NCBI GenBank assembly: GCA_023250995.1 | Contig: JAHEZO010000008.1 | Coordinates: 1 to 37,194 of the forward strand | Direction: 5' to 3' | Source of the DNA: Flavobacteriales bacterium | Lineage (GTDB): Bacteria > Bacteroidota > Bacteroidia > Flavobacteriales_H > JAHEZO01 | DNA: 37,194 bases | In this document: positions 606-34,613 of the stretch, piece by piece | How positions within the stretch are numbered: the first letter of the stretch is position 1 | Layout of the letters: every line of letters starts with the position of its first letter | Made by a program: the position numbers and the translations under genes | The notes under the pieces: model-generated | Told to the model about the DNA's origin: nothing | Database searches by the model: none | The model's input: only the letters and a program-made list of their open reading frames with translations

Positions 606-2084
606 ATGAGGATTAAATTTTTTTTACTTTTTCTTGTTTTTGCTGTTTCACTTCCTTCATTTTCGCAGAAACTCCCTCCAAAATTTCAAGGCCACAACTT
701 AAAATTTAAAATCAATGGTTTAAAAGATACCGTTGCTTATCTTGCCGGCTATTATGGGCCGAAACAATATTTTAAAGATACCGCAGATGTTGACTCCCAG
801 GGAAATTTGGTTTTTAAAGGGAAAGATTCCCTGCCCGGGGGAATTTATTCTGTTGTAATGCCCGATAAGGGCACTTATTTCGAATTTATTATTAATGAAC
901 AAAATTTTTCGATGGAAACCGATACGGGAAATTTTGTAAAAGCAATGAAGGTAAAAGGATCGGTTGAAAATGATTTGTTTTATAAAAGGCTGAATTATCT
1001 TGAGGGGAAGCAAAAAGAAATTAACCCTTTTAAAGCTATAGCAGAGGATTCAACAAAATCGGAGGAAGCAAAGAAGCCCTCCCGTGATAAACTTTCGGCC
1101 ATTGATAAAGAAATAAAGGAGTATACACTTAAAGTGGTTCAGGAAAATCCTTCCACATTCCTGGCTAAAGTTTTTAAAGCAATGGAAGAACCTGAGGTGC
1201 CCGAAACCCCACTTCTCCCAAACGGAGCCAAGGATTCTCTTTTCCCTTTTAGGTATTATAAAGATCATTTTTTCGATAATGTTGATTTCAGGGATGACAG
1301 GCTTCTCCGGACTCCCGTATTTCATAATAAAATGGAAAAGTATCTTAGCAAACTTACAGTGCAGCATCCCGATTCAATAAGTGCTGCGGCAGATTTTATG
1401 GCCGCAAAGGCAAAAGGAAATAAAGAAATGTTTAAATATATTGTGCACTACGTTACAAGTACCTATGAAAAGTCAAATATTATGGGCATGGATGCAGTTT
1501 TTGTTCACATGGCACAGAATTATTATATGAAAGGGGAGGCCTTTTGGATTGATACCGCACAACTTGCTAAAATTACTGAAAGGGCCAATAAACTAGCACC
1601 TTTGCTGGTGGGAAAAAAGGTTGTAAACGTTACTTTGCAGGACACCAGTTGCAAAAAATGGTATTCATTATATGATGTAAAGGCAAAATATACTGTTCTT
1701 ATTTTTTGGGACCCAAACTGTGGTCATTGCAAAAAAGTTATACCGAAACTTAAGGAATTGTTTGATAAATATTCCGACCGGAATTTTTTCGATGTATTTG
1801 CCGTTGGTACTGAGTTTGAGGATAAAGATTGGTCAAAATTCATTGTTGAACATAACCTCAATTGGACCAACGTTTCAGATAATCCCGAAATCAATAAAAA
1901 TTATGCAAAATATATTCATTTAACAAATATTGAAAGTTTAAATTTTCGTCAAACTTTCGACATTTATGCCACACCGGTTACCTTGCTCCTGAACGAAAAC
2001 AAGGAAATAATTGCAAAAAAAATTGATGTAGAGCAAATCGAAGAACTATTGGAGAGGTTTCAGAAAAAAGAAGACAAAAAGTAA
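606..2084 (+). CDS. Thioredoxin-like/TlpA-type protein with N-terminal DUF4369-like and DUF5106-like regions; exported
   Basis: Signal peptide MRIKFFLLFLVFAVSLPSFSQ; C-terminal thioredoxin fold with LIFWDPNCGHCKKVIPKL (CGHC active site). Confidence 0.85.
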   Translation: MRIKFFLLFLVFAVSLPSFSQKLPPKFQGHNLKFKINGLKDTVAYLAGYYGPKQYFKDTADVDSQGNLVFKGKDSLPGGIYSVVMPDKGTYFEFIINEQNFSMETDTGNFVKAMKVKGSVENDLFYKRLNYLEGKQKEINPFKAIAEDSTKSEEAKKPSRDKLSAIDKEIKEYTLKVVQENPSTFLAKVFKAMEEPEVPETPLLPNGAKDSLFPFRYYKDHFFDNVDFRDDRLLRTPVFHNKMEKYLSKLTVQHPDSISAAADFMAAKAKGNKEMFKYIVHYVTSTYEKSNIMGMDAVFVHMAQNYYMKGEAFWIDTAQLAKITERANKLAPLLVGKKVVNVTLQDTSCKKWYSLYDVKAKYTVLIFWDPNCGHCKKVIPKLKELFDKYSDRNFFDVFAVGTEFEDKDWSKFIVEHNLNWTNVSDNPEINKNYAKYIHLTNIESLNFRQTFDIYATPVTLLLNENKEIIAKKIDVEQIEELLERFQKKEDKK

Positions 2085-2110
2085 AATAGACCACTTTGAA
2101 ATTATTAGGT

Positions 2111-2902
2111 TTAGGGGACTTTAACATTAAATTCTTCTGCCAGAATAGTTCTCAGCTCCTCATAATTCAGCCGGGTATTTATTTGTCCCCCTTTTGCAAA
2201 AGCAATTTCCCCCGTTTGTTCCGAAACCACCACGGCAATAGCATCTGAGCGTTCTGTTATTCCGAGAGCTGCCCTGTGACGCATCCCAAGTCTTGATGGA
2301 AAATCTTCCTTTTCAGTTACAGGTAGAACACAACGGGCCATTTTTATTTTATCTCCTTCAATTAAAACCGCTCCGTCATGCAACGGGTTGTTTTTAAAAA
2401 ATATGCTTTCAATAATCCTGGAAGAATAAAAACATTCCATCAATTCACCTGAGGTGATATGAAATTGAAGGTCAGATGTTTTAGTTAGTATAATTAATGC
2501 CCCTGTTTTAGTTCCGGCCATATTCCTGCAAGCCTTTGAAATGCTTGAAATGTTTACATTAAAATTTGCCTGATTTCTGATATTGAAAATTTTCCTGAAA
2601 ACCGGCATTTCTTTAACACCTGTTGTGCCGATTAAAATTAAAAATTTTCTTATTTCCTGCTGAAAAACAATAATTATTGCCAATACCCCAACCCCGATAA
2701 ATTGTCCTAAAATTTCTTTCAGCAGTTCCATCTTTAAAACTGCTACAATTTTCCAGAAAATGTAAATTACCAGAATTCCAATAAAAATTCTGATGGCTGC
2801 GGTACCTTTTACAATATTATAAAACTGGAACATTAAAAGGGCCACCAGGATGATGTCAATCAAATCTAGCCATCTGAAATTTATGAAACTAATGATAGTC
2901 AT
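2111..2902 (-). CDS. cdaA: Diadenylate cyclase (c-di-AMP synthase), CdaA type with N-terminal TM helices
   Basis: DGAVLIEGDKI and GMRHRAALGITERSDAIAVVVSEQTGEIAFAKGG (DAC domain DGA and RHR motifs); hydrophobic N-terminus. Confidence 0.93.
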   Translation of the reverse strand: MTIISFINFRWLDLIDIILVALLMFQFYNIVKGTAAIRIFIGILVIYIFWKIVAVLKMELLKEILGQFIGVGVLAIIIVFQQEIRKFLILIGTTGVKEMPVFRKIFNIRNQANFNVNISSISKACRNMAGTKTGALIILTKTSDLQFHITSGELMECFYSSRIIESIFFKNNPLHDGAVLIEGDKIKMARCVLPVTEKEDFPSRLGMRHRAALGITERSDAIAVVVSEQTGEIAFAKGGQINTRLNYEELRTILAEEFNVKVP

Positions 2903-4020
2903 TTAAAATTTTTTTCCTTTTTGTTTATTCTAACAGCTTGGTTGAGTAACTGTAGAAAAATATTTTTCTGCGATTCTACCGAATACTTTTCAATTACGGT
3001 TTTTCTTGCCTCTTTTCCAATTTTATTTCGCAAATCCCCAGAATCAATCAGACGGCCTATTTTTTCACACCAATCATCTTCTGTTGCAGCAAGAAATCCG
3101 TTAACCCCTTCTTTAATAATTTCATTGTTAACTCCAACTGGTGACATAACGGTAGGAATTTCAAGGGCCATATATTGCAACCCTTTAAATCCACACTTTC
3201 CTCTCGACCAGTCATTATCCGGTAAAGGCATAATCCCAATATCGATTTCAATTAAGTCCTTAATCTCCGTTTCTTTTCTCCACTGGGTTGTTTTGATTTC
3301 AAGCAATGAATTTGAAAAAAATTTATCTGCTATTACTTTGAATTCAATTTTATCTCCGTATTTTTCTTTGATTTTAACCAGGGCCGGAATGATAAGCTGA
3401 AAATGTTTTAAAGTGGTTGATGTGCCGGTCCATCCAATACATACTCTTCCGGTTTCTTTTTTTTCATTTTGTTTTTCTGTTTTTTTTATATGATAATCTG
3501 TATCAATGGTAGTTGGAATAATTTTAACATTTGGATTAAAATTAAATGCATAATCAGCAAGATACTTGTTTCCTGCAATAATTAAATCACTCAATTGAAT
3601 TATTTTACCTGTTTTTGAATAATCCTTAAGCCATTCGAGATTCTTATTTCCATCTGAAACATTGGAAAGCCAGATGGAATCATCAAAATCAAAAATTATT
3701 CTCGCTTTTGATTTATGGAACCTTTTTTCGAAAAAGGTAGTTCCGGTCATAAATGCTTCTCTTTGAATAAAAATCAAATCGTAATTGTTTGCAATAAAAA
3801 TATCCTTTATCCTTATTAAAAAACTTTTTAGTAAAACCAGGAACTTTGTTAAATAATTTCCCTCGCCATAAAATTTACTATCGTCCTTATCCGAAATTAA
3901 ATACGAAAAATCAATTTCAAACCCATGCCTTATTATAAATTCAAAATATTGCTCAAACCGGAATCTCTGACTTGGAGAACGTCCGGGCCGGTGGGCAGCA
4001 ATAAACAGAATTTTTGGCAT
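2899..4020 (-). CDS. Glycosyltransferase, GT4/group-1-like
   Basis: N-terminal Rossmann-like MPKILFIAAHRPGRSPSQRFRFEQY; GRVCIGWTGTSTTLKHFQ; C-terminal GLQYMALEIPTVMSPVGVNNEIIKEGVNGFLA; ATGA overlap with cdaA. Confidence 0.85.
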   Translation of the reverse strand: MPKILFIAAHRPGRSPSQRFRFEQYFEFIIRHGFEIDFSYLISDKDDSKFYGEGNYLTKFLVLLKSFLIRIKDIFIANNYDLIFIQREAFMTGTTFFEKRFHKSKARIIFDFDDSIWLSNVSDGNKNLEWLKDYSKTGKIIQLSDLIIAGNKYLADYAFNFNPNVKIIPTTIDTDYHIKKTEKQNEKKETGRVCIGWTGTSTTLKHFQLIIPALVKIKEKYGDKIEFKVIADKFFSNSLLEIKTTQWRKETEIKDLIEIDIGIMPLPDNDWSRGKCGFKGLQYMALEIPTVMSPVGVNNEIIKEGVNGFLAATEDDWCEKIGRLIDSGDLRNKIGKEARKTVIEKYSVESQKNIFLQLLNQAVRINKKEKNFK

Positions 4021-4075
4021 ATTAATTTATTTTCTTGATTCGGTTCCTTTTAAAGATTATTCTTTTAATTTTTGG

Positions 4076-4106
4076 CAAAGATAAAATTTGATAATGGCTG
4101 TCCAAA
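4076..4106 (-). promoter_or_regulatory. Bacteroidota-type promoter for the glycosyltransferase-cdaA unit
   Basis: Reading the minus strand: TTTG (4106-4103), 19-nt spacer, TATCTTTG (4083-4076), matching TTTG-N19-TAnnTTTG; start codon at 4020. Confidence 0.6.
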
Positions 4107-4119
4107 GTCAGTTTATTTT

Positions 4120-4127
4120 TAACTTTG
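4120..4127 (+). promoter_or_regulatory. Candidate -7 box (TAACTTTG) for the capD-like gene
   Basis: Matches TAnnTTTG, 43 nt before the start at 4171; no good -33 partner seen. Confidence 0.35.
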
Positions 4128-4170
4128 CCTTTGGGCAAAAATCTTTTTTTGCTCCTAAAAAACTTTTAAC

Positions 4171-6045
4171 TTGTGGATTCAGAAAAATAATGCCCCCAGG
4201 TGGTTGATTTTTACCATTGATGCGGGCATTTGCCTTGCTTCACTTTTTCTGGCCTTTTTACTCCGCTTTAATTTTTCCATTCCTCCTGAAGAAATCCGGG
4301 ATTTCGTTTTTGTTTTTCCTATTTTATTTATTGTAAGATCTTCAAGTTTTATTATCACAAAAACCTATTCAGGTATAATTCGATACACGGGCACAGAGGA
4401 TGCCAAAAGAATATTTTTGACTATTTCTTATGGCAGCGTGGTATTGGTTGTTCTCAACTGGGCCCGTTATTATTTTATTGATGAATCATTTATTCTTCCC
4501 TTTTCTGTTTTGATAATTGATTATCTCTCCACGGTTTTCTTTATGATTTCTCTTAGAATTGCCGTAAAAGTTTTATATGGTGAATTATATAACCGTACAA
4601 AGGAAAAATCTAAAGTAATCATTTTTGGTGCAGGCGAGTCAGGGATAATTACTAAACGGGCACTTGACAGGGATGCAGGAACCAAATATAAGGTGGTGGC
4701 TTTTATTGATGATAATGAAAAAAAAGAAAATAAGGAGATTGAAGGGGTAAAAATTTATTCTTTTGAAAAACTGGAAGAAATTCTCACCAATAATGAAGTT
4801 GCCCATGTTATTATATCCGTTCAGAATGTTCCTCCGTTGAGAAAACAGCTGATTATTGAAAAATGCCTTGCTCACAATGTTAGGGTACTTAATGTTCCTC
4901 CGGTTACTAACTGGATTAATGGGGAGCTTAGCTTTAAACAGATAAAAAAAATAAATATTGATGATTTGCTTGAAAGGGAACCGATTAAACTGGATGAAAA
5001 AAATGTGAATAAGGAAATAAGGGGAAAAGTAGCCCTTGTTACCGGTGCTGCCGGCTCTATTGGAAGTGAATTGGTTCGCCAGATTTCCAAATTCTCTCCC
5101 GGCCTAATTATTTTGCTCGACCAGGCAGAATCCCCATTGTATGAACTAGATTTTGAACTTTGTACTGAAGGGAAAAAAATAAAATATGAAATTGTGGTTG
5201 GAGACATCAGGGAGGAGGAAAGGATGGAAAATCTTTTCAGGGTCTTTAAACCCGAAATTGTTTTTCATGCTGCTGCCTATAAACATGTGCCCTTAATGGA
5301 AGAAAACCCCTCCGAATCCATTAGAACCAATGTAATGGGAACCAAAATCATGGCCGACCTTTCCGTAAAGTTCGGTGTAAAGAAATTTGTGATGATCTCC
5401 ACCGATAAAGCAGTTAACCCTACAAGTGTAATGGGTGCAACTAAGAGGATTGCTGAAATTTATGCCCAGTCATTAGGAACTGAAAGCACAACTGCTTTCA
5501 TCACTACAAGGTTTGGAAATGTCCTTGGTTCAAATGGTTCTGTTATTCCCGTTTTTAAAAAACAAATTGAAAACGGAGGGCCTTTAACTGTAACCCATCC
5601 GGAAGTAACCAGGTATTTCATGACCATACCCGAAGCCTGCCAGTTGGTACTTGAAGCAGGAGCAATGGGAATGGGAGGTGAAATTTTTATTTTTGATATG
5701 GGAAAATCCGTAAAGATTGTTGACCTCGCAAAAAAAATGATAAAACTTTCGCGGCTTGAACTTGGAAAAGATATTCAAATTAAGTTTACAGGGTTAAGGC
5801 CCGGTGAAAAACTTTATGAAGAACTACTTAATGACAAGGAAAATACAATGCAAACCCATCATCCAAGAATCATGGTGGCTAAAGTCCGCCAATATGATTT
5901 TCCTTCTGTTTCAAATAAAATCAATGATTTGATTCAGCTCTACCAAACGCAAAACAATGACTTGATTGTGGGGAAACTGAAAGAAATTATTCCCGAATAT
6001 ATAAGCCGGAATTCAGTTTTTGAAAAATTAGATGCGTCCGAATAG
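4171..6045 (+). CDS. Polysaccharide biosynthesis protein, membrane-anchored nucleotide-sugar 4,6-dehydratase/epimerase (CapD/WbpM/FlaA1-like)
   Basis: N-terminal TM region, VIIFGAGESGIITKRAL Rossmann motif, then GKVALVTGAAGSIGSELVRQISKF ... AAAYKHVPLMEENP ... STDKAVNPTSVMGATKR; starts with TTG. Confidence 0.93.
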   Translation: MWIQKNNAPRWLIFTIDAGICLASLFLAFLLRFNFSIPPEEIRDFVFVFPILFIVRSSSFIITKTYSGIIRYTGTEDAKRIFLTISYGSVVLVVLNWARYYFIDESFILPFSVLIIDYLSTVFFMISLRIAVKVLYGELYNRTKEKSKVIIFGAGESGIITKRALDRDAGTKYKVVAFIDDNEKKENKEIEGVKIYSFEKLEEILTNNEVAHVIISVQNVPPLRKQLIIEKCLAHNVRVLNVPPVTNWINGELSFKQIKKINIDDLLEREPIKLDEKNVNKEIRGKVALVTGAAGSIGSELVRQISKFSPGLIILLDQAESPLYELDFELCTEGKKIKYEIVVGDIREEERMENLFRVFKPEIVFHAAAYKHVPLMEENPSESIRTNVMGTKIMADLSVKFGVKKFVMISTDKAVNPTSVMGATKRIAEIYAQSLGTESTTAFITTRFGNVLGSNGSVIPVFKKQIENGGPLTVTHPEVTRYFMTIPEACQLVLEAGAMGMGGEIFIFDMGKSVKIVDLAKKMIKLSRLELGKDIQIKFTGLRPGEKLYEELLNDKENTMQTHHPRIMVAKVRQYDFPSVSNKINDLIQLYQTQNNDLIVGKLKEIIPEYISRNSVFEKLDASE

Positions 6046-6498: not shown

Positions 6499-9354
6499 TT
6501 ACTCTTTAATAATCTTTTTGAACCGGAAGTTGTTTCCTTCAGAAATCTTTATTAAGTAAATTCCATTTCCGAGCATTGAAAGATCAAAGTTGTTTTTATT
6601 TGTCAAAAGAGGACTATTGAAAACTTTTTCTCCAAGCAGGTTATAAACTTCTAATCCTGCTTTAGATGGTTCATGTGTAAATTTTACAGTAAACTCTCCT
6701 GAATTGGGATTAGGGAATACATCAAAATCCAAATTTGTAATTGAATTCTGAATAATACCAACTGCACAACTGTCAATAGTAACAGTGTCAGAGTAAATGG
6801 CATTATTTCCGCAGGAGTTGGTAATTTTTACAGAAACAGGATAATCACCTGAATACAAATAAGCATGAAACGCATCAGTAATAGTTCCAAAGGTTGTGTC
6901 GGCCGGTGAGCCATCCCCGTAATTCCAAATGTAATTGGCACCTCCCAGTGCATTAAACTTTACTGAATCTCCCTGGCAAATCATTCCACCATTAGACCAG
7001 AAATCACCATCCACCGGAACATTTCCTCCTATGGTAACCATAAAGGAATCAGTAAAACTCTTATTACATTGATTTGTTAAGGTGAACAAAACTTTGAAAG
7101 TGCCATTTGTAGCGTAAACGTGTGGGGCAATATCAATGGAAAATCCTCCATCGGTAAATAAATAAGAGGTTGTAGTTGATGTACCATCTCCAAAATTCCA
7201 AAGATAAGTTCCGCTTCCTGCGGGTTGAATATAAAATAAAATGCTGTCACCCGAACAGGCGGTATCAACCGCAACTCCGTAGCCATAATCGCTGGGATTA
7301 GGAATCACATTATTATTAACATCCACCACAAATGAAATAACGGTATCATTTCCGCATTGATTTGTCATTGTAAGGGTAGCATTATAGCTTCCCACCGTTG
7401 GATATGAATGGCCTGCAGATTCAAAAGTTGAAGAATCCCCGTCACCGAAATTCCATAAAAATGTTTTTGCATCACTGCTCCATGCTTCAAAATAAATATT
7501 GCTTCCCGGACAGGCAGGCGATGGATTTACATTTAAATCAATCATCCCAGAAAAGGGAACATTATTATCAATGTTAATCATAGTAGAAAGTGTTGTGTCC
7601 TTTCCGCAATAATTGGTTATTGCAACCGAAACATTAAACATTCCTGCTCCCGAAAATGAATGGGTAACTTCATTCGCTGCTGTGGTATCCAAAGGCGTTC
7701 CGTCTCCGTAATTCCAAATATAGGAGGCCATGCCATTGGGGCCATTTATAAATATTTCAGTTCCGGGGCATGCTGTCTGTGGCCAGTTATAAAGGCCAAT
7801 TCCCTGCTGAAAGGGGGCATTTGCAGTTACAGAAACCATTCCACTGCCCGAACTGCTGTTCCCGCATGAATTGGTAACATTGCAGGTAATGGTGTAATTT
7901 CCAATGTTCGGGTAACCATGCATGGTATTTTGCCCGTTTCCTGAATTTCCATCTCCAAAATTCCATTGGTAGTTGTTCCCGACAGCAGAAGAATAAAGAT
8001 TTACCGGTTGGTTCGGACAAACCTCATTGGGCCAAATGCCGAAACCTGAATCGGGAACAACATTGGAGCCAACAAAAAGATTCTGATAAATTGTATCAAC
8101 CCCACAGGAAGTGGATACCACTAAAGACACGGTATAATTGCCAACATTGGTGTAAGTATGCTCTGCCCATTGCTGTCCACTTTCAGTAGAACCATCCCCA
8201 AAAGCCCAGTCATAATTAAATGCTCCGTCTTGTCCTTTGAAATTTACCTTATCTCCTGGGCAAACACTGTCGGAAGCCATTTCGAAAAATCCCGAGGACC
8301 CACCAACAAAAATTATTTCATAAGCATTTCCAACAAAATTAAAATTTGCATCATAAGCGGATAAACTTATCCAGTAGTTACCTCCAGCGTTAAATGTATG
8401 TGAGGTATCCAATCCAAAATAAGAGCCACCGTCACCAAAATTCCACTGGTAATAACTTGCCCCACTTGAATTGTTTGTAAATGTTACCGTTAATGGAGCA
8501 CAACCCGAGGTGGGGTTAGCCGAAAAGGAAATCTGTGCTTGAGCGGGTGTGGGTATCTGGTACGTTCCCTTTGTTACCATTCCGTTGCCATCTGCTTCAA
8601 TTTCAGCTAACGGAAATTCTTTGGTATCCGACCACCATCTGAAAGTAATGGTTGTGTCGGTGGTTGGGGAGCCTGCAGGATTCCAGGAACCAAACATATG
8701 AACAAAGGTGCTGTCAGTCTTATATTCGGTAACTTTTTGCCTCAGCGAACTTACATTTTGGAATGCAGGAGTGGTAATCATTCCCCACCCGTCAATTTCA
8801 CTGGAATAAACAATATTTGAAATCACTCTGATTGAGTCGATGGGAGGTTGTTGTGTATAAGGAAACTCAATCTTGTACATGGTGGTTCCGCTAAAAGTGG
8901 TTTGGTAAGTGCTGGGAAAGGAAATAAATTTTTCGGAAGGAGTAAATAATACAGGTGCGGGCCCTCCTCCGAAATCTCCATAAAATCCCAAAATATCAAG
9001 CGAATTTGAATTGTTGTTTAAAAAAAGATTTGCACCGCTTGTAATTAAACCAAGATTTGAATTTGGAAAAGAAGAAAATCCCTGCAGGTTCGAAGGATTA
9101 TCAAATGAATTGGTATCAGTTCCTTGGTTCAGCCAGCCTGAAAAGTCCCAGTTTTGGTTTGCCCCTGCTGTACCTGCCGAAGTTATGGTAGTGTCCTTGG
9201 CGGCATAATAGGTTTTCCCCTGCTGCGGCATGTTATTGGAATTAATAATTATCTGACCGGCAGAATTAAAAGGTGAATAAATAATTCCGGAAAATCCTGA
9301 TAGAAAAATTACCATTGCCGAAAATTTTGGAAGAAATATTTTTTTCATAATCAA
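6499..9354 (-). CDS. Secreted multi-PKD-domain protein with T9SS C-terminal sorting domain
   Basis: Seven PKD motifs (WNFGDGG, WAFGDGS, WNFGDGN, WNYGDGT, WNFGDGD, WNFGDGT, WNYGDGS); C-terminus NLDFDVFPNPNSGEFTVKF...LEVYNLLGEKVF...GNGIYLIKISEGNNFRFKKIIKE. Called ORF starts with TTG; ATG at 9348 is more likely. Confidence 0.92.
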   Translation of the reverse strand: MIMKKIFLPKFSAMVIFLSGFSGIIYSPFNSAGQIIINSNNMPQQGKTYYAAKDTTITSAGTAGANQNWDFSGWLNQGTDTNSFDNPSNLQGFSSFPNSNLGLITSGANLFLNNNSNSLDILGFYGDFGGGPAPVLFTPSEKFISFPSTYQTTFSGTTMYKIEFPYTQQPPIDSIRVISNIVYSSEIDGWGMITTPAFQNVSSLRQKVTEYKTDSTFVHMFGSWNPAGSPTTDTTITFRWWSDTKEFPLAEIEADGNGMVTKGTYQIPTPAQAQISFSANPTSGCAPLTVTFTNNSSGASYYQWNFGDGGSYFGLDTSHTFNAGGNYWISLSAYDANFNFVGNAYEIIFVGGSSGFFEMASDSVCPGDKVNFKGQDGAFNYDWAFGDGSTESGQQWAEHTYTNVGNYTVSLVVSTSCGVDTIYQNLFVGSNVVPDSGFGIWPNEVCPNQPVNLYSSAVGNNYQWNFGDGNSGNGQNTMHGYPNIGNYTITCNVTNSCGNSSSGSGMVSVTANAPFQQGIGLYNWPQTACPGTEIFINGPNGMASYIWNYGDGTPLDTTAANEVTHSFSGAGMFNVSVAITNYCGKDTTLSTMINIDNNVPFSGMIDLNVNPSPACPGSNIYFEAWSSDAKTFLWNFGDGDSSTFESAGHSYPTVGSYNATLTMTNQCGNDTVISFVVDVNNNVIPNPSDYGYGVAVDTACSGDSILFYIQPAGSGTYLWNFGDGTSTTTSYLFTDGGFSIDIAPHVYATNGTFKVLFTLTNQCNKSFTDSFMVTIGGNVPVDGDFWSNGGMICQGDSVKFNALGGANYIWNYGDGSPADTTFGTITDAFHAYLYSGDYPVSVKITNSCGNNAIYSDTVTIDSCAVGIIQNSITNLDFDVFPNPNSGEFTVKFTHEPSKAGLEVYNLLGEKVFNSPLLTNKNNFDLSMLGNGIYLIKISEGNNFRFKKIIKE
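6772..8535 (-). repeat. Seven tandem PKD repeats (protein-level; boundaries approximate)
   Basis: Recurring W(N/A)(F/Y)GDG spaced about 75-95 aa; six units carry a paired C(P/S/Q)G...C(G/N) signature. Confidence 0.85.
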
Positions 9355-20932: not shown

Positions 20933-22414
20933 ATGAAAAATTCCATCCAGGGTCACAAAAAGGCTCTAATAATGACCCTAATATTATTTTCCTTTTTAAT
21001 GATTATTGGAAATTTTAACAAGGCAAAAGCCCAAAATTTTCCTGCCCAAAATGTTTCCCTCCTTGGGCGTTGGTTCGATTCAACAGTGGTTTCAGAGCCC
21101 CAGCATGGAATAAAATATAACGGAGTTTTTGGCTGGACAAATCCCGGAGATGGAAGGGAATATGCTATTATCGGGTCCACTGCCGGAACATATTTTATTG
21201 AAGTCACCAACCCATCACTTCCTGTTGTTCGTGATTTTGTTGGAGGAAGAAGGGATTCCTGCGTTTGGAGGGAAATACATACATACCAAAATTTTTGTTA
21301 TATGGTGAGTGATGATGGTTTGCCCAACAGTTTTCAGATTGTTGATTTATCTCCTTTGCCCGATTCGGTTCATGTTGTTCACGACAGCACAAACATTATG
21401 AGCCGGTGCCATACAATTTTTGTGGATGGCGATAAGCTTTATGCCGGAATACCCAAGGGCCCTTTCGGACAATCATCCATGGCAGTTTTTAGTTTGAAAA
21501 ATAATCCGGCCAGTCCGTTTTTATTGAGGCGGCTGGAAGAAGATTACACGGGGATTGATGCCACGCATGACATGTTTGTACGTCACGATACTATTTACGC
21601 ATCAATGAGCAATTCGGGGTATTTTGTTTACCGGTTCGACACTTTATTGAATAAATTTTTATTGCTCGGATCCCTTACTTCATATCCTTTTAAAGGATAT
21701 AACCACAGCTCTTCAGTTACCGAAAGCGGAATATCAATTATGTGTGATGAGGTTCCTTCAGGGTTGCAGGTAAAAGCGGTTGACGTGAACGATTTATCAG
21801 ATATTACTGTTACCGATACATTCAAATCAAACACAGGGGCCACTCCGCACAATCCATATGTAGTTGGAAACAACAGAGTAGTTATTGCATATTACCAGGA
21901 TGGTGTTCAGATTTTTGATATTTCGGACCCAAGCAATATAACAAGAAGCGGATATTTTGATACCAGGCCCGAAATTGGGGATAATAACGGATATCCCGGG
22001 GATCCTTATCAAGGTTGCTGGGGCGCATTTACCGGATTGCCGAGCGGAAATTTGCTGGCAAGTGATATGCAAAACGGACTTTTTATCCTGAATATTAACG
22101 CAGCTCTTGGCATGGACGAAAATATTCAAACAAAATCTTTTTCATTTATTTATCCAAATCCTAATACAGGAAAATTTTCCATTCTGTGGAAAAAGGAGAG
22201 AGAAATATCAAGCCTAAAAATTATTTCGGTTCTTGGTTCGATAGTGTTTTCTAAATCTATGATAGAAAATAATTGTGATTTGAGTGGAGATTCCATTTCC
22301 GGAAATTTCCAATACTCCGTTGATGTTTCTGATTTTCCGGAAGGAATTTACTTTGTACTATTAAGCGGGATGAATTTTACTGAAGTAAAAAAGTTGGTAA
22401 AAACCAATGGTTGA
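20933..22414 (+). CDS. Choice-of-anchor B family secreted protein with LVIVD-like repeats and T9SS C-terminal sorting domain
   Basis: Signal region, YAIIGSTAGTYFIEVTNPSLPVVRDFVGGRRDSCVWREIHTYQNFCYMVSD, YYQDGVQIFDISDPSNITRSGYFDT; C-terminus FSFIYPNPNTGKFSILW...VDVSDFPEGIYFVLLSGMNFTEVKKLVKTNG. Confidence 0.88.
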   Translation: MKNSIQGHKKALIMTLILFSFLMIIGNFNKAKAQNFPAQNVSLLGRWFDSTVVSEPQHGIKYNGVFGWTNPGDGREYAIIGSTAGTYFIEVTNPSLPVVRDFVGGRRDSCVWREIHTYQNFCYMVSDDGLPNSFQIVDLSPLPDSVHVVHDSTNIMSRCHTIFVDGDKLYAGIPKGPFGQSSMAVFSLKNNPASPFLLRRLEEDYTGIDATHDMFVRHDTIYASMSNSGYFVYRFDTLLNKFLLLGSLTSYPFKGYNHSSSVTESGISIMCDEVPSGLQVKAVDVNDLSDITVTDTFKSNTGATPHNPYVVGNNRVVIAYYQDGVQIFDISDPSNITRSGYFDTRPEIGDNNGYPGDPYQGCWGAFTGLPSGNLLASDMQNGLFILNINAALGMDENIQTKSFSFIYPNPNTGKFSILWKKEREISSLKIISVLGSIVFSKSMIENNCDLSGDSISGNFQYSVDVSDFPEGIYFVLLSGMNFTEVKKLVKTNG

Positions 22415-23684: not shown

Positions 23685-24485
23685 TTATTTTTTCCGGTTT
23701 TTTATTTCTGAAAGAACTTTTTTGGTGTAAAGGGGGAAATCTCCCTGCATCATCCAGGCATAATAGGAGGGTTCTTTTTGCAAAACAACTTCTACCGGAA
23801 TTCCTTTATGTTTCCCAAAATTGAAAACTTCTTTACCGTTTTTATCAAAAATAATTCTTCCTGCAAAATCTGCATTATTACTCCTGGAAGAAAATTCATG
23901 TAAAAAGCCAACATCATTTTTAAGATTTTCATATTTTTCAATCTGAGCTAGCAAAATTTCATAAGTTGCTTTAATATCAGCTTCGGCACTATGGGCATTT
24001 TCCAGATTTTTAAAACAATAAAATTTATAGGCAGCAGAAAGGGTTCTTTCCTCCATTTTGTGAAAAATATTCTGAACATCAATCAGATTTCTTCCTTTAA
24101 TTTCAAACTCAATATCTGCCCTTAGGAATTCTTCCACCAAAAGGGGAATATCAAATTTATTTGAATTATAACCTGCCAGGTCACAATTTTCCAGAAATGT
24201 TTTTAATTCATTAGCCACCTCTTTAAAGGTGGGTTTCCCTGCCACATCCTTATCGAAAATTCCATGAATATCTGATGAGGCCGGGGGAATAGGAATGGTT
24301 GGATTAATAAGGGAAGTTTTAATTTCTTCACCCATCTTTCCGGATGTAAACAAATCAGTTTTTGGTGCAGAATCTTCAGGAAATAATTTAAGAAAGGAAA
24401 ATTCTACAATCCGATCGGTTCCAATATTTACACCGGTGGTTTCAAGATCGAAAAAAACCAGAGGTCTGTTTAAAATAAGTTTCAT
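23685..24485 (-). CDS. 3'-5' exonuclease (DnaQ/DEDD) with a C-terminal DUF3820-like region
   Basis: LVFFDLETTGVNIGTDRIVEFSFLKL (ExoI), LAGYNSNKFDIPLLVEEFLRA (ExoII), NAHSAEADIKATYEILL (ExoIII); C-terminal FNFGKHKGIPVEVVLQKEPSYYAWMMQGDFP. Confidence 0.9.
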   Translation of the reverse strand: MKLILNRPLVFFDLETTGVNIGTDRIVEFSFLKLFPEDSAPKTDLFTSGKMGEEIKTSLINPTIPIPPASSDIHGIFDKDVAGKPTFKEVANELKTFLENCDLAGYNSNKFDIPLLVEEFLRADIEFEIKGRNLIDVQNIFHKMEERTLSAAYKFYCFKNLENAHSAEADIKATYEILLAQIEKYENLKNDVGFLHEFSSRSNNADFAGRIIFDKNGKEVFNFGKHKGIPVEVVLQKEPSYYAWMMQGDFPLYTKKVLSEIKNRKK

Positions 24486-24510: not shown

Positions 24511-26133
24511 TTATTTTGGTAATAATAGTATATCCTTTCTTATAGGCCCTTTTTTAATATCCGATTCTGAAATTGAAATATTTGTTTTTACAGGCTGATA
24601 TCGGGAAGATTCAATACTTAAAGTATATTTTCCCTGGGCAAGGATGGTGGTATAAACCCCATTGTTAGGGTTTGGCTGGTAAGTTCCTACCAAATCCATT
24701 GTTTCGTCAAAAAGCAAAACCTTAGCATCAAGGGTTAAAAAACTTTCAAATTTATCTTTTAATTTAAATTGATAGGCCAGCAAAGGCACATTGGCATTGT
24801 TGAAAAAAACCTTGTAAATATCGAGGTCACCAAATCCGCCTTTACGAAAAGCCGAAACATAGGCTGTATTTTTATTTTCGGAAAATGAAATTACCCTTTC
24901 ATCGTCAGGGGTATTTAGAGGATAACCGACATTTTGTGGAGGTATCCAAAAATTATCCTCATCATCAAATACTGAAACAAAAATATCAAACCCTCCCATG
25001 CTTGAATGCCCCTCGGAGCAAAAGTACAGGGTATGCCCGTCAGCCGAAAGAGTAGGAAAATCCTCGTTATATTTTGTGTTTATCTGAGGGCCCAGGTTTT
25101 GGGGAAGTGCCCATTCTCCATCAGGCAATTTTTTGCACATATATAAATCCAGTCCGCCCTGCCCGCCATCCATTGCACTTGAAAAAAAAAGTGAATAACC
25201 ATCGGCCGAAATAGAAGCTGCTGTTTCTAAGCTGGAAGAATTAACATTTGTGCCAAGTTTAATTGCCTTCTGAAAGGCTTTTGATTTCCTTTCGGCCATA
25301 AAAATATCGCCAAACTTATCAATCTGGTCGAGATAAATAAACATTGATTTTCCATCATCGGAAAGTCCAACCGCCTCTTCATCGTAAGATGAATTAATTA
25401 TTCCTCCGGCATTTTTGGCTTTCCCCAGGGAACCACCTGTTTTTTCAGCAATCCATATATCGGATGGAAACAAACCGTCAAATTCCTCCTCTCCGCCCAC
25501 GTTGCCTTTTCTGCGGGAGGTAAAAACGATAAAAGATTCATCCTTGGCAGCAAAGGGATAGTAATCTGCAAATTCAGAGTTAATTTCTTTCCCGAGATTT
25601 TGAAACGTAACCTCCACAGGATGTTTCATCAGTTCCCTGGCAGTGATACAGGTTTCAATCTGCCGATCGGCTTTAGATGCTTTTGCAATATCACTTTCAA
25701 GAGGTTTGTACTTTTTATACATTTTTATGGCATCGTCAAATTTGTAATTTAACTGGTATGCCCATCCGAGGTCAAAATATGTTTCGGGTTCGGCATTTGC
25801 AAATTTTACGGCTCTTTCCAAAGGTTGAATCGCCTTGCTTTTATCAATATTTGTTTGTAAAAAACAAATCCCGAGATGATGATAATTTTCTGGATCATCC
25901 GGCTCCTGTTTGATTAATTTTTCAAATTCGGGGATTGCTGCCCGGTAATTTTTGTGCTTAAAATAATCTTTTGCAACCCGGGGATCAGTAAAGGCTTGAG
26001 AAAAAGAAAAATAAGAGGTAAAAAATAGGATGAAGGAAATAAAATAGGAAAGGGCCTCAAAAATTGGCGGTTTTATCATCAACATTAAATTTGTGTAAAA
26101 ATAATTTATTTTATCCAATGAAATAAAAACCAA
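24511..26133 (-). CDS. TPR + PD40/WD40-like beta-propeller envelope protein, no OmpA domain (paralogue of 27662..30955)
   Basis: TPR near N-terminus; repeated SADGHTLYFCSEGHSSMGGFDIFVS-type PD40 units; C-terminal region resembles a carboxypeptidase-regulatory-like domain. Likely true start is an internal Met (MLMIKPP or MIKPP). Confidence 0.85.
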   Translation of the reverse strand: MVFISLDKINYFYTNLMLMIKPPIFEALSYFISFILFFTSYFSFSQAFTDPRVAKDYFKHKNYRAAIPEFEKLIKQEPDDPENYHHLGICFLQTNIDKSKAIQPLERAVKFANAEPETYFDLGWAYQLNYKFDDAIKMYKKYKPLESDIAKASKADRQIETCITARELMKHPVEVTFQNLGKEINSEFADYYPFAAKDESFIVFTSRRKGNVGGEEEFDGLFPSDIWIAEKTGGSLGKAKNAGGIINSSYDEEAVGLSDDGKSMFIYLDQIDKFGDIFMAERKSKAFQKAIKLGTNVNSSSLETAASISADGYSLFFSSAMDGGQGGLDLYMCKKLPDGEWALPQNLGPQINTKYNEDFPTLSADGHTLYFCSEGHSSMGGFDIFVSVFDDEDNFWIPPQNVGYPLNTPDDERVISFSENKNTAYVSAFRKGGFGDLDIYKVFFNNANVPLLAYQFKLKDKFESFLTLDAKVLLFDETMDLVGTYQPNPNNGVYTTILAQGKYTLSIESSRYQPVKTNISISESDIKKGPIRKDILLLPK

Positions 26134-26184: not shown

Positions 26185-27576
26185 ATGGAAGACCTCCAGG
26201 TTTTGCTGCCAAAAATGGGAGAAAGTGTTGCCGAGGCCACTATTACCAAGTGGTTAAAAGCAGTGGGTGATAAAGTGGAAGCCGAAGAATCTTTAGTTGA
26301 AATTGCTACTGATAAAGTGGACAGTGAAGTCCCATCCCCTGGCAGCGGAGTTTTAACCAAAATTCTTTATAAAGTTGGGGATGTTGTAAAAGTAGGGGAA
26401 ACCATAGCAGTATTAAATGTTGCTCCTGTTTCCGGAAAACCAATCGAAAAAACCTCCTCCACCTCTTCGGTTTCATTGAGGGAAAACCAAGATGATTTAA
26501 TAAAAACAAAAAAAGAAGATTCTCCTCTGATAATTAGCACAAATGCCTCAAACCAATTTTTAGGTGAAAAGAATTTAAAATACGGTGAAACGGATCAAAA
26601 AAAGGAAGAAAGTTATCAGTTTGACAGCAAAAGATTTTATTCCCCCCTGGTGCGAAATATTGCCAAGCAGGAGGGAATTTCATTTACCGAACTGGAAGCC
26701 CTTAGCGGAAGTGGAAAGGAAGGCAGGGTTACAAAAATGGATTTATTGAATTATCTTCCTCAGAAAAGGGAGAAAGAGATAAAATTGAAGGAGGGGGAGA
26801 AGGTTACAAATGGTATAGAAATAAAACAAGAAATTATTAAGGGTGAAATTGAAAGGCGGAATGATGATTTGTTTGAAATAATTGAAATGGACCGGATGAG
26901 AAAGCTTATTGCCGATCACATGGTGATGAGCAAACAAACTTCTCCGCATGTTACTTCTTATGTAGAGGCAGATGTCACAAACCTGGTTGTATGGCGTGAA
27001 AAGGCAAAAAAAATATTTGAAAAAAGGGATGGTGAAAAAATAACTTTTACCCCCCTTTTTGTGGAAGCGGTAGTAAAGGCCCTAAAAGATTTTCCGATGG
27101 TAAATGTTTCGGTAGAAGGATATAAAATCATTCGTAAGAAATTTATTAATATTGGAATGGCCACTGCCCTTCCTTCGGGTAATTTAATTGTTCCTGTAAT
27201 TAAAAATGCGGATCACTTAAACCTTCTTGGATTAACCAAAATGGTAAATGACCTGTCGAACAGGGCCCGGACGAATAAATTAAAACCCGATGAAATTCAA
27301 AACGGAACCTTTACCATATCCAATGTTGGTACCTTCGGCAATGTAATGGGAGCCCCAATCATAAACCAGCCCCAGGTTGCAATAATGGCTCTTGGGGCAA
27401 TAAGAAAAAAACCAGCAGTAATTGAAACTCCAATGGGTGATACCATTGGAATCAGACATCAGATGTTTCTTTCTTTATCCTATGACCACAGGGTAGTAGA
27501 TGGAGTTCTGGGAGGTAGTTTTTTAAGGAGAGTTGCCGATTACCTTGAAAAATTCGATGTAAAAAGAGAAATATAA
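26185..27576 (+). CDS. Dihydrolipoamide acyltransferase (E2 of a 2-oxoacid dehydrogenase complex, branched-chain-type likely)
   Basis: Lipoyl domain EIATDKVDSEVPSP; peripheral subunit-binding domain YSPLVRNIAKQEGISFTELEALSGSGKEGRVTKMDLLNYL; catalytic LSYDHRVVDGVLGGSFLRRV. Confidence 0.94.
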   Translation: MEDLQVLLPKMGESVAEATITKWLKAVGDKVEAEESLVEIATDKVDSEVPSPGSGVLTKILYKVGDVVKVGETIAVLNVAPVSGKPIEKTSSTSSVSLRENQDDLIKTKKEDSPLIISTNASNQFLGEKNLKYGETDQKKEESYQFDSKRFYSPLVRNIAKQEGISFTELEALSGSGKEGRVTKMDLLNYLPQKREKEIKLKEGEKVTNGIEIKQEIIKGEIERRNDDLFEIIEMDRMRKLIADHMVMSKQTSPHVTSYVEADVTNLVVWREKAKKIFEKRDGEKITFTPLFVEAVVKALKDFPMVNVSVEGYKIIRKKFINIGMATALPSGNLIVPVIKNADHLNLLGLTKMVNDLSNRARTNKLKPDEIQNGTFTISNVGTFGNVMGAPIINQPQVAIMALGAIRKKPAVIETPMGDTIGIRHQMFLSLSYDHRVVDGVLGGSFLRRVADYLEKFDVKREI

Positions 27577-27661: not shown

Positions 27662-30600
27662 GTGCTAATGAAATATTTCCGTCTGGTTTTAGTTTTTTCC
27701 CTTTATTGCATTTTTAACAAAGGATTTTCTCAGGATACCCTGGTTCATTTTTCGTTTAACGACAAGTTTAACGATGCCAACTTATTAATGGAGGAAAAAC
27801 TTTACCCCATTGCCCTTCCCGTTTGGCTGGAGGTTCTTCAAACTGATACAGGCAATTCAAATTGGAACTATAAAGTTGGAATTTGTTATTTAAATTCCAG
27901 CAATGAAAGAACCCGTTCACTTTCATATCTTGAAAAAGCAATTTTAAATACTTCCAAGAATTATAATCCATTTTCATCTTCAGAAAAAAGATCACCTAAT
28001 GATGCTTATTATTATCTTGCAAAATCATACCACCTTAATAACCAAATTGATAAAGCCATTGAGTATTTTAATAAATTTAAAGATGTGGCAGGAAAAAAAC
28101 ATTACATGATTCCCGATGTAGAAAGGAGTTTGGAAATGTGCCTCAACGCAAAGGATATGCTCGGCAAACCCATTACAGTGAAAATTACAAATCTTGGCGA
28201 TAAAATAAATTCACCCTCCCCTGAATACGGAGCCGTTTTATCTCTGGATGAAAAGGCCCTTTATTTTACCTCCAGAAGGTTATGGAAAGACAGCTCAAAT
28301 TCAGATATGAAAGAAAGAAGCGATGGGGATTATTTTGAAGATATTTATGTTTCGTTTAAAGGGAGTGACGGAAACTGGCTGGAACCCGAGTTACTTAATT
28401 TTAATCGCCCGGATGACCATGAGGCAACTATTTCTCTGTCGGCTGATGGCCATACTCTTTATTTATACCGTGACGAAGACGGGAATGGAAATTTGTATCA
28501 AAGCTTTTTTATTGATACATCCTGGTCCGGCCCGGTTCCAATGGGATCAGATATTAACAGCAAATCTCACGAAACGCATCTTACCGTAACAATGGATGGC
28601 AAAACTCTATATTTTGTAAGTAACCGGAAAGGTGGTTTTGGTGAAAAGGATATTTATAAATGCACTAAACTTCCCAATGGGCAATGGTCGCTTGCTCAGA
28701 ATTTAGGGCCAATAATTAACTCGAAATTTGATGAGGATGGTCCATTTATTCATCCTGACGGGAAAACAATGTTTTTCAGTTCAAAAGGACATAAGAGCAT
28801 GGGAGGATTTGATATTTTCATGACTACCTTAAAAGACGATGGAACCTGGTCTGAACCTGAAAATCTTGGTTACCCGATAAACACCACGGATGATGATATC
28901 TTTTTTGTTTTAAGTCCGGATGGCAAAAGGGCTTATTATTCTTCCTTCAGAGAAGGGGGGCATGGTAGCAAAGACATTTATATTATTCAGCAACCAGATG
29001 CCATTGAGCATTCGCTTACTTTAATTAAAGGTACTATTACCGTTCCGGAAGGGATGGAAATACCGGATGATTTAAATATTGTAATTACCAATAATGAAAC
29101 GGGAGAGTATGTTACCGAGGTTAAGCCTCTGAAGAGGAACGGGAGTTTTGTATTTATTATTCCTCCGGGTAAAAATTATAATATTTCATATAATATTGGT
29201 GAAACAGAATTTTACAATGAAAATGTGTATGTGCCGGTTGGAAAAGATTATAATGAAGTGGATAAGCTGATTGCACTTAATCCTCAAAAGTTAGGTACCC
29301 CTGAAGCCGTTAAAGTGGATATAATAAGTTCAAGAGAAAAGCCCAAGCCACAGTGGCAGATTCGTTTCAGAGAACCCGGCAAAATGATTCCGGATAGTTC
29401 CTACATTCAATATTTGAATGCTGAGGGTGCAGTAATTTATGAAGAGTTGATTTCAAAATCAGGGTTTTTTAATTATTATGAACTTGAAAAAACACAACCC
29501 TATTTATTTACTCTGAAATCCAAGGATAGTCCGCTTTGTAGCCAAGCCGAAATTGTTTTAATCAATGGTGAAAAAGACGCCAGATACCTTGCGGATGAAA
29601 AATGTATTTTTAAAGAAGAGGAAATAATTAATCCTAAATTTATTTTTAACAGCCTAGGATTTACCATACCGGATAATGTTTCTTTGCAATATCTAGACAA
29701 TAATGAAAATGTACTATTTGAAGAGGTCCTTAAAAAGAGTGGTGACCTTGTTTTTCACCAAATGCCTTCCGACTCCAGTTATATTTTAAGAGTTGGGTTG
29801 GATGCCTCCTTTTGCAAAGAAGCCAAAATTGAAATTCCAAAAAAGGATGGCGGCAGCTTAACGTTATTGCCGGATGCTAAATGTATTTTTCGGTTGAGAG
29901 AGCAAAAGCCAAAATTTTTATTCAGTTCTCTTGAGAAAGAATTTTCTGCAGGATTAGGTGTTCAGTACTTGGATGAAAAAGGGAAAATAATTTATGAAGA
30001 GAAAATTAATGAAAAAGGGGAGTTTAATTTTCATGTCCTCCCAATAGAAAAGCCTTATTTAATGAAGTTGAAAACTAAAAACACCAGTTTTTGCGATGAA
30101 GGGGAGATTACAATACCCGGACCCGGTGGAAGTGTTTATACCCTTATTGCCGATGAGAATTGCATTTTCAGGGTTAAGGATAAAAAATCAAAATTTGTTT
30201 ATGAATACCTTGATAAGGAAACTGCCGGTGGATTGCGGATTCAGATTATTGATGAAAACGGCAATGTTGTTTTAGAAGAAAAAATGAATGAGAAGGGAGA
30301 GTTCCCATATTATAAATTCCCAACCGATAAAAAATATTCTATTAAGATTTTACCCTACAGCCCGGAAAAATTTAGGAATACAGAAATTATTATTCCTTCT
30401 TTGGGAAAGAAGTTTTTTAAATATGTTCCGGATGAATCGGGGGTATTTCGTTTAAAAGATGTAAAAGAGGAGACCATTGTTGCAGGAGAAGAAAAGTCAA
30501 TAATGCCTGAAAAGGTAATTGAGGTTAATGAAAAGGAGCCTGTGATTGAAAATGAAAAAACGGTTGTTAAGGAAAAAGAAAAAACGGTGACTCAGTCCCC

Positions 30601-30955
30601 AGTGGCCATTGCAAAAACGATTTTGTTTGATTACAATAGTTTTGAAATTGGTTCTCAATATCTGCAAGAATTGGACGAGGTTGTAAAAACGCTAAAAGAA
30701 TATTCTTCAATGAAAGTTGAAATTTTTGGCCACACCGATTCAAAGGGTACCGATGATTTTAATCAAAACCTTTCGAAGAAAAGGGCAGAAAATTCTGCAA
30801 AATATTTAATTTCAAAAGGAATTTCACGAAAAAGAATTACCACCAAAGGATTTGGAGAAAGCCAACCTGTGGCTCCGAATATTTTACCTGATGGAAGTGA
30901 TAACCCCGAAGGAAGGCAGAAAAACAGGAGGATTGAATTGAAAGGAAAAAATTAA
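27662..30955 (+). CDS. Large envelope protein: TPR, PD40 propeller, regulatory-like beta domain, four ~93-aa tandem repeats, C-terminal OmpA peptidoglycan-binding domain
   Basis: SADGHTLYLYRDEDGNGN, TMDGKTLYFVSNRKGGFGEKDIYKC, HPDGKTMFFSSKGHKSMGGFDIF; C-terminal VEIFGHTDSKGTDDFNQNLSKKRAENSAKYLISKGISRKRITTKGFGESQP...EGRQKNRRIEL. Called start is GTG; ATG 27668 more likely. Confidence 0.93.
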   Translation: MLMKYFRLVLVFSLYCIFNKGFSQDTLVHFSFNDKFNDANLLMEEKLYPIALPVWLEVLQTDTGNSNWNYKVGICYLNSSNERTRSLSYLEKAILNTSKNYNPFSSSEKRSPNDAYYYLAKSYHLNNQIDKAIEYFNKFKDVAGKKHYMIPDVERSLEMCLNAKDMLGKPITVKITNLGDKINSPSPEYGAVLSLDEKALYFTSRRLWKDSSNSDMKERSDGDYFEDIYVSFKGSDGNWLEPELLNFNRPDDHEATISLSADGHTLYLYRDEDGNGNLYQSFFIDTSWSGPVPMGSDINSKSHETHLTVTMDGKTLYFVSNRKGGFGEKDIYKCTKLPNGQWSLAQNLGPIINSKFDEDGPFIHPDGKTMFFSSKGHKSMGGFDIFMTTLKDDGTWSEPENLGYPINTTDDDIFFVLSPDGKRAYYSSFREGGHGSKDIYIIQQPDAIEHSLTLIKGTITVPEGMEIPDDLNIVITNNETGEYVTEVKPLKRNGSFVFIIPPGKNYNISYNIGETEFYNENVYVPVGKDYNEVDKLIALNPQKLGTPEAVKVDIISSREKPKPQWQIRFREPGKMIPDSSYIQYLNAEGAVIYEELISKSGFFNYYELEKTQPYLFTLKSKDSPLCSQAEIVLINGEKDARYLADEKCIFKEEEIINPKFIFNSLGFTIPDNVSLQYLDNNENVLFEEVLKKSGDLVFHQMPSDSSYILRVGLDASFCKEAKIEIPKKDGGSLTLLPDAKCIFRLREQKPKFLFSSLEKEFSAGLGVQYLDEKGKIIYEEKINEKGEFNFHVLPIEKPYLMKLKTKNTSFCDEGEITIPGPGGSVYTLIADENCIFRVKDKKSKFVYEYLDKETAGGLRIQIIDENGNVVLEEKMNEKGEFPYYKFPTDKKYSIKILPYSPEKFRNTEIIIPSLGKKFFKYVPDESGVFRLKDVKEETIVAGEEKSIMPEKVIEVNEKEPVIENEKTVVKEKEKTVTQSPVAIAKTILFDYNSFEIGSQYLQELDEVVKTLKEYSSMKVEIFGHTDSKGTDDFNQNLSKKRAENSAKYLISKGISRKRITTKGFGESQPVAPNILPDGSDNPEGRQKNRRIELKGKN
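29339..30465 (+). repeat. Four tandem ~93-aa repeats within the OmpA/PD40 protein (approx. 29339-29629, 29630-29905, 29906-30184, 30185-30465)
   Basis: Recurring (N/K)xKFxFxxL...xxQYLDExGxxxxEExxxKxGxFxxxxxPxxxxYxxxLxxxxxxFCxEAxIxIPxxxGxxxxLxxDexCIFRxxxx. Confidence 0.85.
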
Positions 30956-33362: not shown

Positions 33363-34613
33363 TTAGTGGATATTATTCGTCTTTATTTGAGGCGTAAAAC
33401 GAATTGGAAAAAGATACTCAACATTTACTGCACGACCATTTAAAAGGGCAGGAATCCAACTGTTTGGTAATTCTTTTATTGCTTTTAAGGCTTCCTCGTC
33501 ACAACCCCCTCCAATCCCTTTTAAAATATTATAATTTTTCGCTTTTCCTGTACTATCAACCATAAATGTTAAATAAACTGTGCCATAAATATTTTCATCC
33601 ATTGCCAATTTAGGGTACCTGATTTTATTAGAAATTAATTCATTCATAATAGTTGTACCTCCAATGAATAAGGGTGGTCGGTTAAGTTTTGTTTTAAAGG
33701 TATCCTTTAAATTAATTACATTAAAAAGAATTTCTTTTTGTTCGTCATCAATCCTAAAGAAAGATAACTCCTCTTTGGAAAAATCATATTTTTGTTCAAT
33801 AACCCCTTTCTTGTCGTAGAACTCCCAAATTCCAATTCTCTTGTCATCCTGATATTCACCATGCGAAATTTTTTTTTTGCCATCGGCCCGATATTCTGTC
33901 CAAATGCCGTCTTTAAGTCCATTTTTGGAAAAACTATTTGTAACAATTGTTTTTGACAAAAGTTGTCCCATATCGTATTCCTCGATAACTAATTTCCCAG
34001 TTTTATGATTGTATTTCTTGCAAATTCCATGCTTTTTAAATATTATTTTGGGTCTCAAAATTCTTTTTCGAGAAATTATCTTAAATGAGCTTTTGTCGGA
34101 ACCTAAATAGTAAATAATTAATTGTGAATTCGGCAGGAAATAATAGGTCCTCAATCTTTCTGATTTGAATAAATTGGTATATAACACACTATCTGAAAAT
34201 ATTTTTGGATAAATTTCCATGGATTTTAATCGTCCATCTCCATAATATGAAAACGAAGTATCTTGGTAAACACAATTTTTTATATTTATATTACCCGTTC
34301 CTTTGATTTTACCATTTTCATAAAAGGCAGCTCGGGGGCCAACTTCCCAGTTTTTATTTTGATTATCTGAAAAGTATTTAACTAGTAAATGTAAAAATTT
34401 GCTATTGCCATTTTTATATTTTTCATGGATTAAGTTAACTTCTTTAAAATTTTCATTTTTTTTCAATTCACACCTAATGCTGTCAAGCTTTTTTAAAAAA
34501 ATTTCCACTGATGTAGAATCAGAAGACTGTCCAAAAATTTTCATTAAAATCAAAAGAAATATTGAAATAATTATTGTCCTTTTAATTGACATTTTTTTAA
34601 TATTATAGCCCAA
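33363..34613 (-). CDS. Exported protein with MORN/YwqK-like repeats and C-terminal TonB-C domain
   Basis: Signal peptide after MSIKRTIIISIFLLILMKIFGQ (ATG 34592 likely start); KDGIWTEYRADGKKKISHGEYQDDKRIGIWEFYDKKG; RYPKLAMDENIYGTVYLTFMVDSTGKAKNYNILKGIGGGCDEEALKAIKELP. Confidence 0.85.
   Translation of the reverse strand: MGYNIKKMSIKRTIIISIFLLILMKIFGQSSDSTSVEIFLKKLDSIRCELKKNENFKEVNLIHEKYKNGNSKFLHLLVKYFSDNQNKNWEVGPRAAFYENGKIKGTGNINIKNCVYQDTSFSYYGDGRLKSMEIYPKIFSDSVLYTNLFKSERLRTYYFLPNSQLIIYYLGSDKSSFKIISRKRILRPKIIFKKHGICKKYNHKTGKLVIEEYDMGQLLSKTIVTNSFSKNGLKDGIWTEYRADGKKKISHGEYQDDKRIGIWEFYDKKGVIEQKYDFSKEELSFFRIDDEQKEILFNVINLKDTFKTKLNRPPLFIGGTTIMNELISNKIRYPKLAMDENIYGTVYLTFMVDSTGKAKNYNILKGIGGGCDEEALKAIKELPNSWIPALLNGRAVNVEYLFPIRFTPQIKTNNIH

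Follow-up and report, generated by a model that had tools for sequence, protein, structure and literature searches.

A cysteine-paired array of CRD-like repeats in a PorE/CHU_0125-type protein of an uncultured Bacteroidota bacterium

The locus and its gene products

The DNA that we analyzed is a 37,194-nucleotide stretch of a Bacteroidota genome (contig JAHEZO010000008.1; this whole stretch is called the window), and the gene of interest lies on its forward strand. The open reading frame begins with a GTG at position 27662 or an ATG at position 27668 and ends at position 30955, giving a protein of 1,097 or 1,095 aa. Pfam searches with this protein recovered strong matches to PD40 (E = 1.7e-31) and OmpA (PF00691; E = 4.1e-19, 69.2 bits against a cut-off of 27.2) and a weak match to TPR. 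The features of the gene and of its neighbors are as follows (window coordinates, strand, description, and basis).

23685..24485, minus strand: 3'-5' exonuclease (RNase_T, ExoX-like_C), second syntenic marker (domain match, synteny)
24511..26133, minus strand: TPR and PD40 protein lacking OmpA, a divergent neighbor and paralog (ORF, Pfam)
26185..27576, plus strand: 2-oxo-acid dehydrogenase E2 (lipoyl) gene, syntenic marker (sequence motif PKMGESVAEATITKWLK)
27668..30955, plus strand: whole gene, encoding TPR, PD40 propeller, CRD-like domain, four-repeat array, linker, and OmpA (ORF, Pfam, NCBIfam)
27668..27733, plus strand: signal peptide of the signal-peptidase-I type, MKYFRLVLVFSLYCIFNKGFSQ (by eye from the sequence)
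29009..29310, plus strand: R0, a single CRD-like domain (aa ~450 to 550; aligned in 55 homologs)
29339..29626, plus strand: R1 (aa 560 to 655), Cys626/Cys648 (Smith-Waterman, tree, alignment)
29627..29902, plus strand: R2 (aa 656 to 747), Cys718/Cys741 (Smith-Waterman, tree, alignment)
29903..30181, plus strand: R3 (aa 748 to 840), Cys811/Cys834 (Smith-Waterman, tree, alignment; AF2 model, pLDDT 75)
30182..30466, plus strand: R4 (aa 841 to 935), Phe904/Gly927 in place of Cys (Smith-Waterman, tree, alignment)
30467..30589, plus strand: charged linker rich in Glu, Lys, and Val (sequence)
30590..30955, plus strand: OmpA-like peptidoglycan-binding domain with an intact Asp...Asn...Arg motif, HTDSKGTDDFNQNLSKKRA (Pfam OmpA; alignment with orthologs and with the PorE candidate of the same genome)

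The protein encoded at 24511 to 26133 (minus strand) lies across the E2 gene from the array gene, and the otherwise conserved locus appears to be rearranged in the window. Elsewhere in the window, two proteins (6499 to 9354, minus strand; 20933 to 22414, plus strand) carry at their C termini the sorting domains of type IX secretion (Por_Secre_tail), and the host therefore probably uses this secretion route. In a further product (33363 to 34613, minus strand), a repeat-like region with no Pfam match is followed by a TonB C-terminal domain (PF03544).

The repeat array and the family to which it belongs

Pairwise Smith-Waterman comparisons of R1 to R4 yielded z scores between 10.4 and 31.1 (1,000 shuffles), every observed score exceeding that of the best shuffle, and the other repeats of the window are 35 to 39% identical to R3. 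The four tandem repeats of ~93 aa that an initial annotation had recognized in this OmpA/PD40 protein are thus present where it placed them. Its description of the array as lying between the propeller and the OmpA domain is right as to position but left out R0, the CRD-like domain upstream of the array, which is present in this protein family with or without the repeats. R0 resembles the repeats weakly (z up to 5.2 in Smith-Waterman comparisons), and the direct comparison with R1 to R4 is such that a few shuffles reach the same score. With hhalign, the repeats matched R0 at 92.6% when bridging Cys-free repeats were included in the profile and at 40.3% with the R0 rows alone. Given these two values and the nonsignificant Foldseek matches described below, remote homology is probable rather than proven, and we call the unit CRD-like (transthyretin/carboxypeptidase-regulatory-like) in this sense.

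The unit can be placed in a widespread family of repeats, probably CRD-like beta-sandwiches and for the most part without Cys, that occur in PorE/CHU_0125-type proteins, with Cys-free relatives in 91 of 395 genomes of the class matching the repeat profile at an E value of ≤1e-6. At ≤1e-13, only the host's own genome matched among 396 genomes drawn from the phylum, from which we conclude that the Cys version of the repeat is rare. The Cys-free relatives include "KLPGD" repeats (e.g., those of a 1,122-aa protein on contig C235 of G000), which the repeat profile recovers as homologous units at E values of about 1e-9 to 1e-11 and which likewise lie between a propeller and an OmpA domain; they differ in having no Cys pair and in forming a separate clade (support 100/99). 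On the same contig (L007), a putative PorP/SprF-like gene, so named from its sequence (496 to 1452), precedes this TPR/PD40/OmpA paralog (1526 to 4894), whose four repeats are of the Cys-free KLPGD type.

The earlier remark that the unit was not recognized as a named domain holds insofar as it has no solved structure and no confident specific Pfam match, but it is recognizable as a CRD-like repeat. We rejected the only Pfam candidates, EMC7_beta-sandw (PF09430, by name a beta-sandwich domain) and SdrD_B (PF17210), both of which show weak sequence similarity to some of the repeats. R2 alone surpassed the PF09430 cut-off, and it did so only in the full-length scan (31.7 against 26.6 bits; 25.5 bits when the array was scanned alone); scanned repeat by repeat, the best Pfam E value was 0.0078. 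Profile searches against solved structures gave potempin A as the best match, at a nonsignificant E value of 0.022. An AF2 model from the four window repeats alone had a pLDDT of 66, and one with R0 domains added (from the window and related loci) had a pLDDT of 75 and showed a beta-sandwich with strands at positions 4 to 9, 19 to 23, 29 to 34, 40 to 42, 53 to 57, 67 to 72, and 78 to 82 and a short last strand at 88 to 89. Foldseek searches with the two AF2 models recovered no significant match (E ≥ 0.026); the leading matches, all nonsignificant, included CopC and the CnaB-like SpyCatcher/FbaB, with transthyretin lower down.

A jointly conserved pair of cysteines

R1, R2, and R3 each contain one Cys pair, with a spacing of 22 to 23 residues, and the aligned residues of R4 are Phe904 (codon TTT) and Gly927 (GGG), in line with the initial annotation, which had one pair in each of copies 1 to 3 and neither residue in copy 4. 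This pattern extends to the whole array clade, which comprises 21 repeats from the window and six other genomes, including the lone repeat of a second G001 protein (see below): both Cys are present in 20 repeats, a single one in none, and neither in one, namely R4 of the window. Orthologs with an unpaired Cys, which had been named beforehand as evidence that would speak against a disulfide, were looked for and are absent from these 21 repeats; the proposed alignment of orthologs for repeat number and Cys co-occurrence gave two, three, or four repeats per array together with the above-mentioned counts. Among all 191 distinct repeat matches, Cys occupies both aligned places in 20, and the sole match with one Cys (L128) is a remote paralog in which that Cys is displaced. 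In the 21-repeat alignment, conservation is highest in the columns of the two Cys, tied with one Phe.

In the phylogenetic tree, the Cys clade, R4 included, is split from the Cys-free paralogous repeats (support 100/99), and within it R4 is joined with R2 and R3 (87/83); R4 has therefore most likely lost both Cys. As this is a single known loss event, its statistical independence is limited, and the case for pairing rests mainly on conservation. In the AF2 model, Cys64 precedes the strand at 67 to 72 and Cys87 precedes the last strand, each immediately, so that both would sit at turns around the strand at 78 to 82, an arrangement compatible with a bond. The joint conservation of the two residues supports well an intra-repeat disulfide, which these repeats probably form. 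This bond had been suggested from the window alone, and the counts, as well as the lone repeat with both Cys, lend it substance; weighing against it, the host has no recognizable DsbB or VKOR and no convincing DsbA.

Two other uses of the cysteines have to be considered. They might bond neighboring repeats or two molecules and thus cross-link the array, as the tandem arrangement and exposed ends would permit. However, the solitary repeat keeps both Cys, unpaired Cys would remain at the ends of an array, and R4 has lost both residues while the adjacent R3 has both. The first two of these points favor pairing within the repeat, and we consider cross-linking highly improbable. Alternatively, the two Cys might bind a metal or form a redox-active thiol pair in place of a structural disulfide, which would accord with the lack of recognized disulfide-forming enzymes in the host genome and with the presence, in 16 of the 21 repeats, of an Asp close to the second Cys. 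Yet each repeat has just two Cys, no other His or Cys is invariant, R4 retains the Asp though both Cys are gone, and the spacing of 21 to 28 aa offers no CxxC redox motif; such a role is hence improbable, and an intra-repeat disulfide remains our preferred reading of the pair.

Orthologs and variation in array length

Array-bearing orthologs were recovered from G001, the only other genome of the same order among those searched, and from G151, G395, G396, G397, and G399, which belong to another order of the class. The E2 lipoyl gene and/or the 3'-5' exonuclease gene flanks the gene in all six, as well as at L017 and L018, two more distant syntenic homologs, and the E2 gene adjoins the array protein at the other loci for which a flank is available. 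At this one locus, the array comprises four repeats in the window and G001, three in G151 and G395, two in G396, G397, and G399, and none in L017 and L018, where a Gly/Pro-rich linker stands between the CRD-like and OmpA-like domains. To judge from this comparison, the repeat arrays look like spacers of variable length. The repeat also occurs outside such arrays in a second G001 protein (L149:5032-11022, contig C41; 1,996 aa), which has a propeller, very long coiled coils, and a canonical OmpA end; its single repeat, with both Cys kept, is embedded between the coiled coils.

Contacts are often made through CRD-like and TTR-like folds, and the array could instead be a module that binds a partner or ligand, be it an exported protein or a component of a secretion system, with the Cys pair merely stabilizing the domain. 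The positional identity of the repeats is indeed kept across genomes beyond what a pure spacer would need. R1 is of a first-position type and groups with the first repeats of other arrays, which cluster across genomes with one change on the tree (unlabeled rows being excluded from this count). A further group (94/90), outside which R4 falls, unites the last repeats of G001, G151, and G395. Against this, no motif stood out in the 21-repeat alignment beyond Gly, Tyr, and Phe residues of the fold type and the Cys, and there are syntenic homologs with no array at all. We regard a binding module as unlikely and continue to favor a spacer.

The wall-binding end and the relationship to PorE and CHU_0125

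In Bacteroidota, proteins of the PorE/CHU_0125 type are thought to connect the machinery of the outer membrane with the cell wall. The best NCBIfam match of the window protein is CHU_0125_OmpA (NF053607; 291.7 bits, under the cut-off of 620), followed by T9SS_PorE (NF052230; 248.6 bits, cut-off 600). CHU_0125 of Cytophaga hutchinsonii is likewise a TPR/PD40/OmpA protein, but its 656 aa are reported to contain these three domains only; without it, the integrity of the outer membrane is impaired and more vesicles are formed (PMC5891637). PorE of Porphyromonas gingivalis is a lipoprotein with TPR, a five-bladed propeller, a CRD, and an OmpA_C-like domain that binds a peptidoglycan fragment, the side chains of Asp576, Asn584, and Arg591 making the contact (PMC7192894). 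The window protein follows this domain order except for the four further repeats after its CRD-like domain, where PorE has one CRD, and it keeps all three peptidoglycan-binding residues (HTD...N...R). It differs from PorE at the N-terminus as well, where inspection by eye shows SLYC, which is no canonical lipobox, the small residue before the Cys being missing.

The likeness in domain order and the 248.6-bit match raise the possibility that the protein is nothing other than the type IX secretion component PorE carrying additional domains. This we hold to be very unlikely: the score is below the 600-bit cut-off, contig C195 of the same genome encodes a far better, full-length PorE candidate (520.5 bits, likewise under the cut-off), and the window protein, unlike the lipoprotein PorE (PMC7192894), shows no lipobox. 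The same genome contains 35 PorE-like stretches on >20 contigs (e.g., C195, C215, C22, C235, C30, and C114). With so many such loci and a better candidate at C195, we interpret the window protein as a paralog within an expanded family.

The wall-binding end is less uniform among the orthologs. In G001, G395, G396, G397, and G399, alignment shows that the Asn and Arg are kept but that a small residue replaces the Asp and a loop is longer, a count of five out of six orthologs that covers all those that are readable, as the G151 gene is truncated there by the contig edge. The Asp-less motif, ASRVPTxT...N..L...RA, was seen at L143:3576-7010, L145:4840-7875, L146, L147:5150-7768, L148:802-3390, and L017. 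Unlike the last repeats of these orthologs, R4 adjoins the linker to a canonical OmpA domain, and from the sequences it would seem that either the window lineage swapped its C-terminal domain or the other orthologs diverged. A peptidoglycan tether is plausible for the window protein, which is probably a link between the outer membrane and the cell wall in this uncultured bacterium; the absence of the Asp in five orthologs means that tethering is no demonstrated conserved feature of the array. Of the initial proposal of an extendable spacer tethering a propeller to peptidoglycan, the extendable part is thus well served by lengths of zero, two, three, and four repeats at one locus, and the tethering part applies less generally.

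Proposed architecture and its implications

Taken together, we think it somewhat probable that the window protein is a periplasmic PorE/CHU_0125-type protein in which a disulfide-stapled array of CRD-like repeats serves as a length-adjustable spacer. The array would keep apart the propeller, probably the partner-binding end, and the OmpA domain, the cell wall end. In a standard repeat, one internal disulfide would staple the Cys before the penultimate strand pair to the Cys before the last strand, making the possibly rod-shaped array a stable spacer whose length can be adjusted. R4, beside the OmpA linker and with both Cys lost, presumably folds unstapled like the Cys-free relatives. Of this picture, the array, its varying copy number, the joint conservation and loss of the Cys, and the complete wall-binding motif of the window protein are observed; the bond, the rod shape, the function as a spacer, and the binding partner of the propeller are inferred. 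What is new here is the addition of a Cys-paired repeat array to a known type of protein, not a new kind of system. The variant suggests that the distance from propeller to wall domain may change by gain or loss of CRD-like repeats, and the Cys pair is an easily tested feature of it.

Disulfide formation in the host

This architecture prompts one to ask how disulfides are made in lineages with no recognizable Dsb or VKOR enzymes. Searches that gave matches in control genomes recovered no VKOR in the host genome, G001, or G151 and no DsbB or Thioredoxin_4 in the host genome and the six array-bearing relatives. For DSBA, there was a single match over the cut-off, in G396, and a below-cut-off fragment of 16.9 bits in the host genome. 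At 92% completeness, absence from the host genome is unproven, but the more complete G001 (97%) and G151 (98%) genomes agree with it on the missing enzymes. Predicted exported proteins showed no bias toward even numbers of Cys (31 even against 27 odd) in a 545-kb contig sample classified by a crude heuristic signal-peptide rule, and a literature search yielded nothing directly relevant on the disulfide machinery of Bacteroidota or on PD40/CRD repeat arrays. Hence, either an unrecognized oxidant acts or the Cys pair forms no disulfide. The full combination, a disulfide-stapled periplasmic CRD-like spacer of variable copy number made with neither DsbB nor VKOR and with no convincing DsbA, strikes us as improbable; if true, it would imply an unrecognized oxidative folding route in these Bacteroidota.

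Cys residues outside the conserved pair are scarce, with just 4 in about 2,000 residues of the 21-repeat clade. An extra Cys falls in one shared column in repeat 1 of both G397 and G399, and repeat 3 of G151 (L144) contains four Cys, of which the two additional ones may possibly form a second disulfide.
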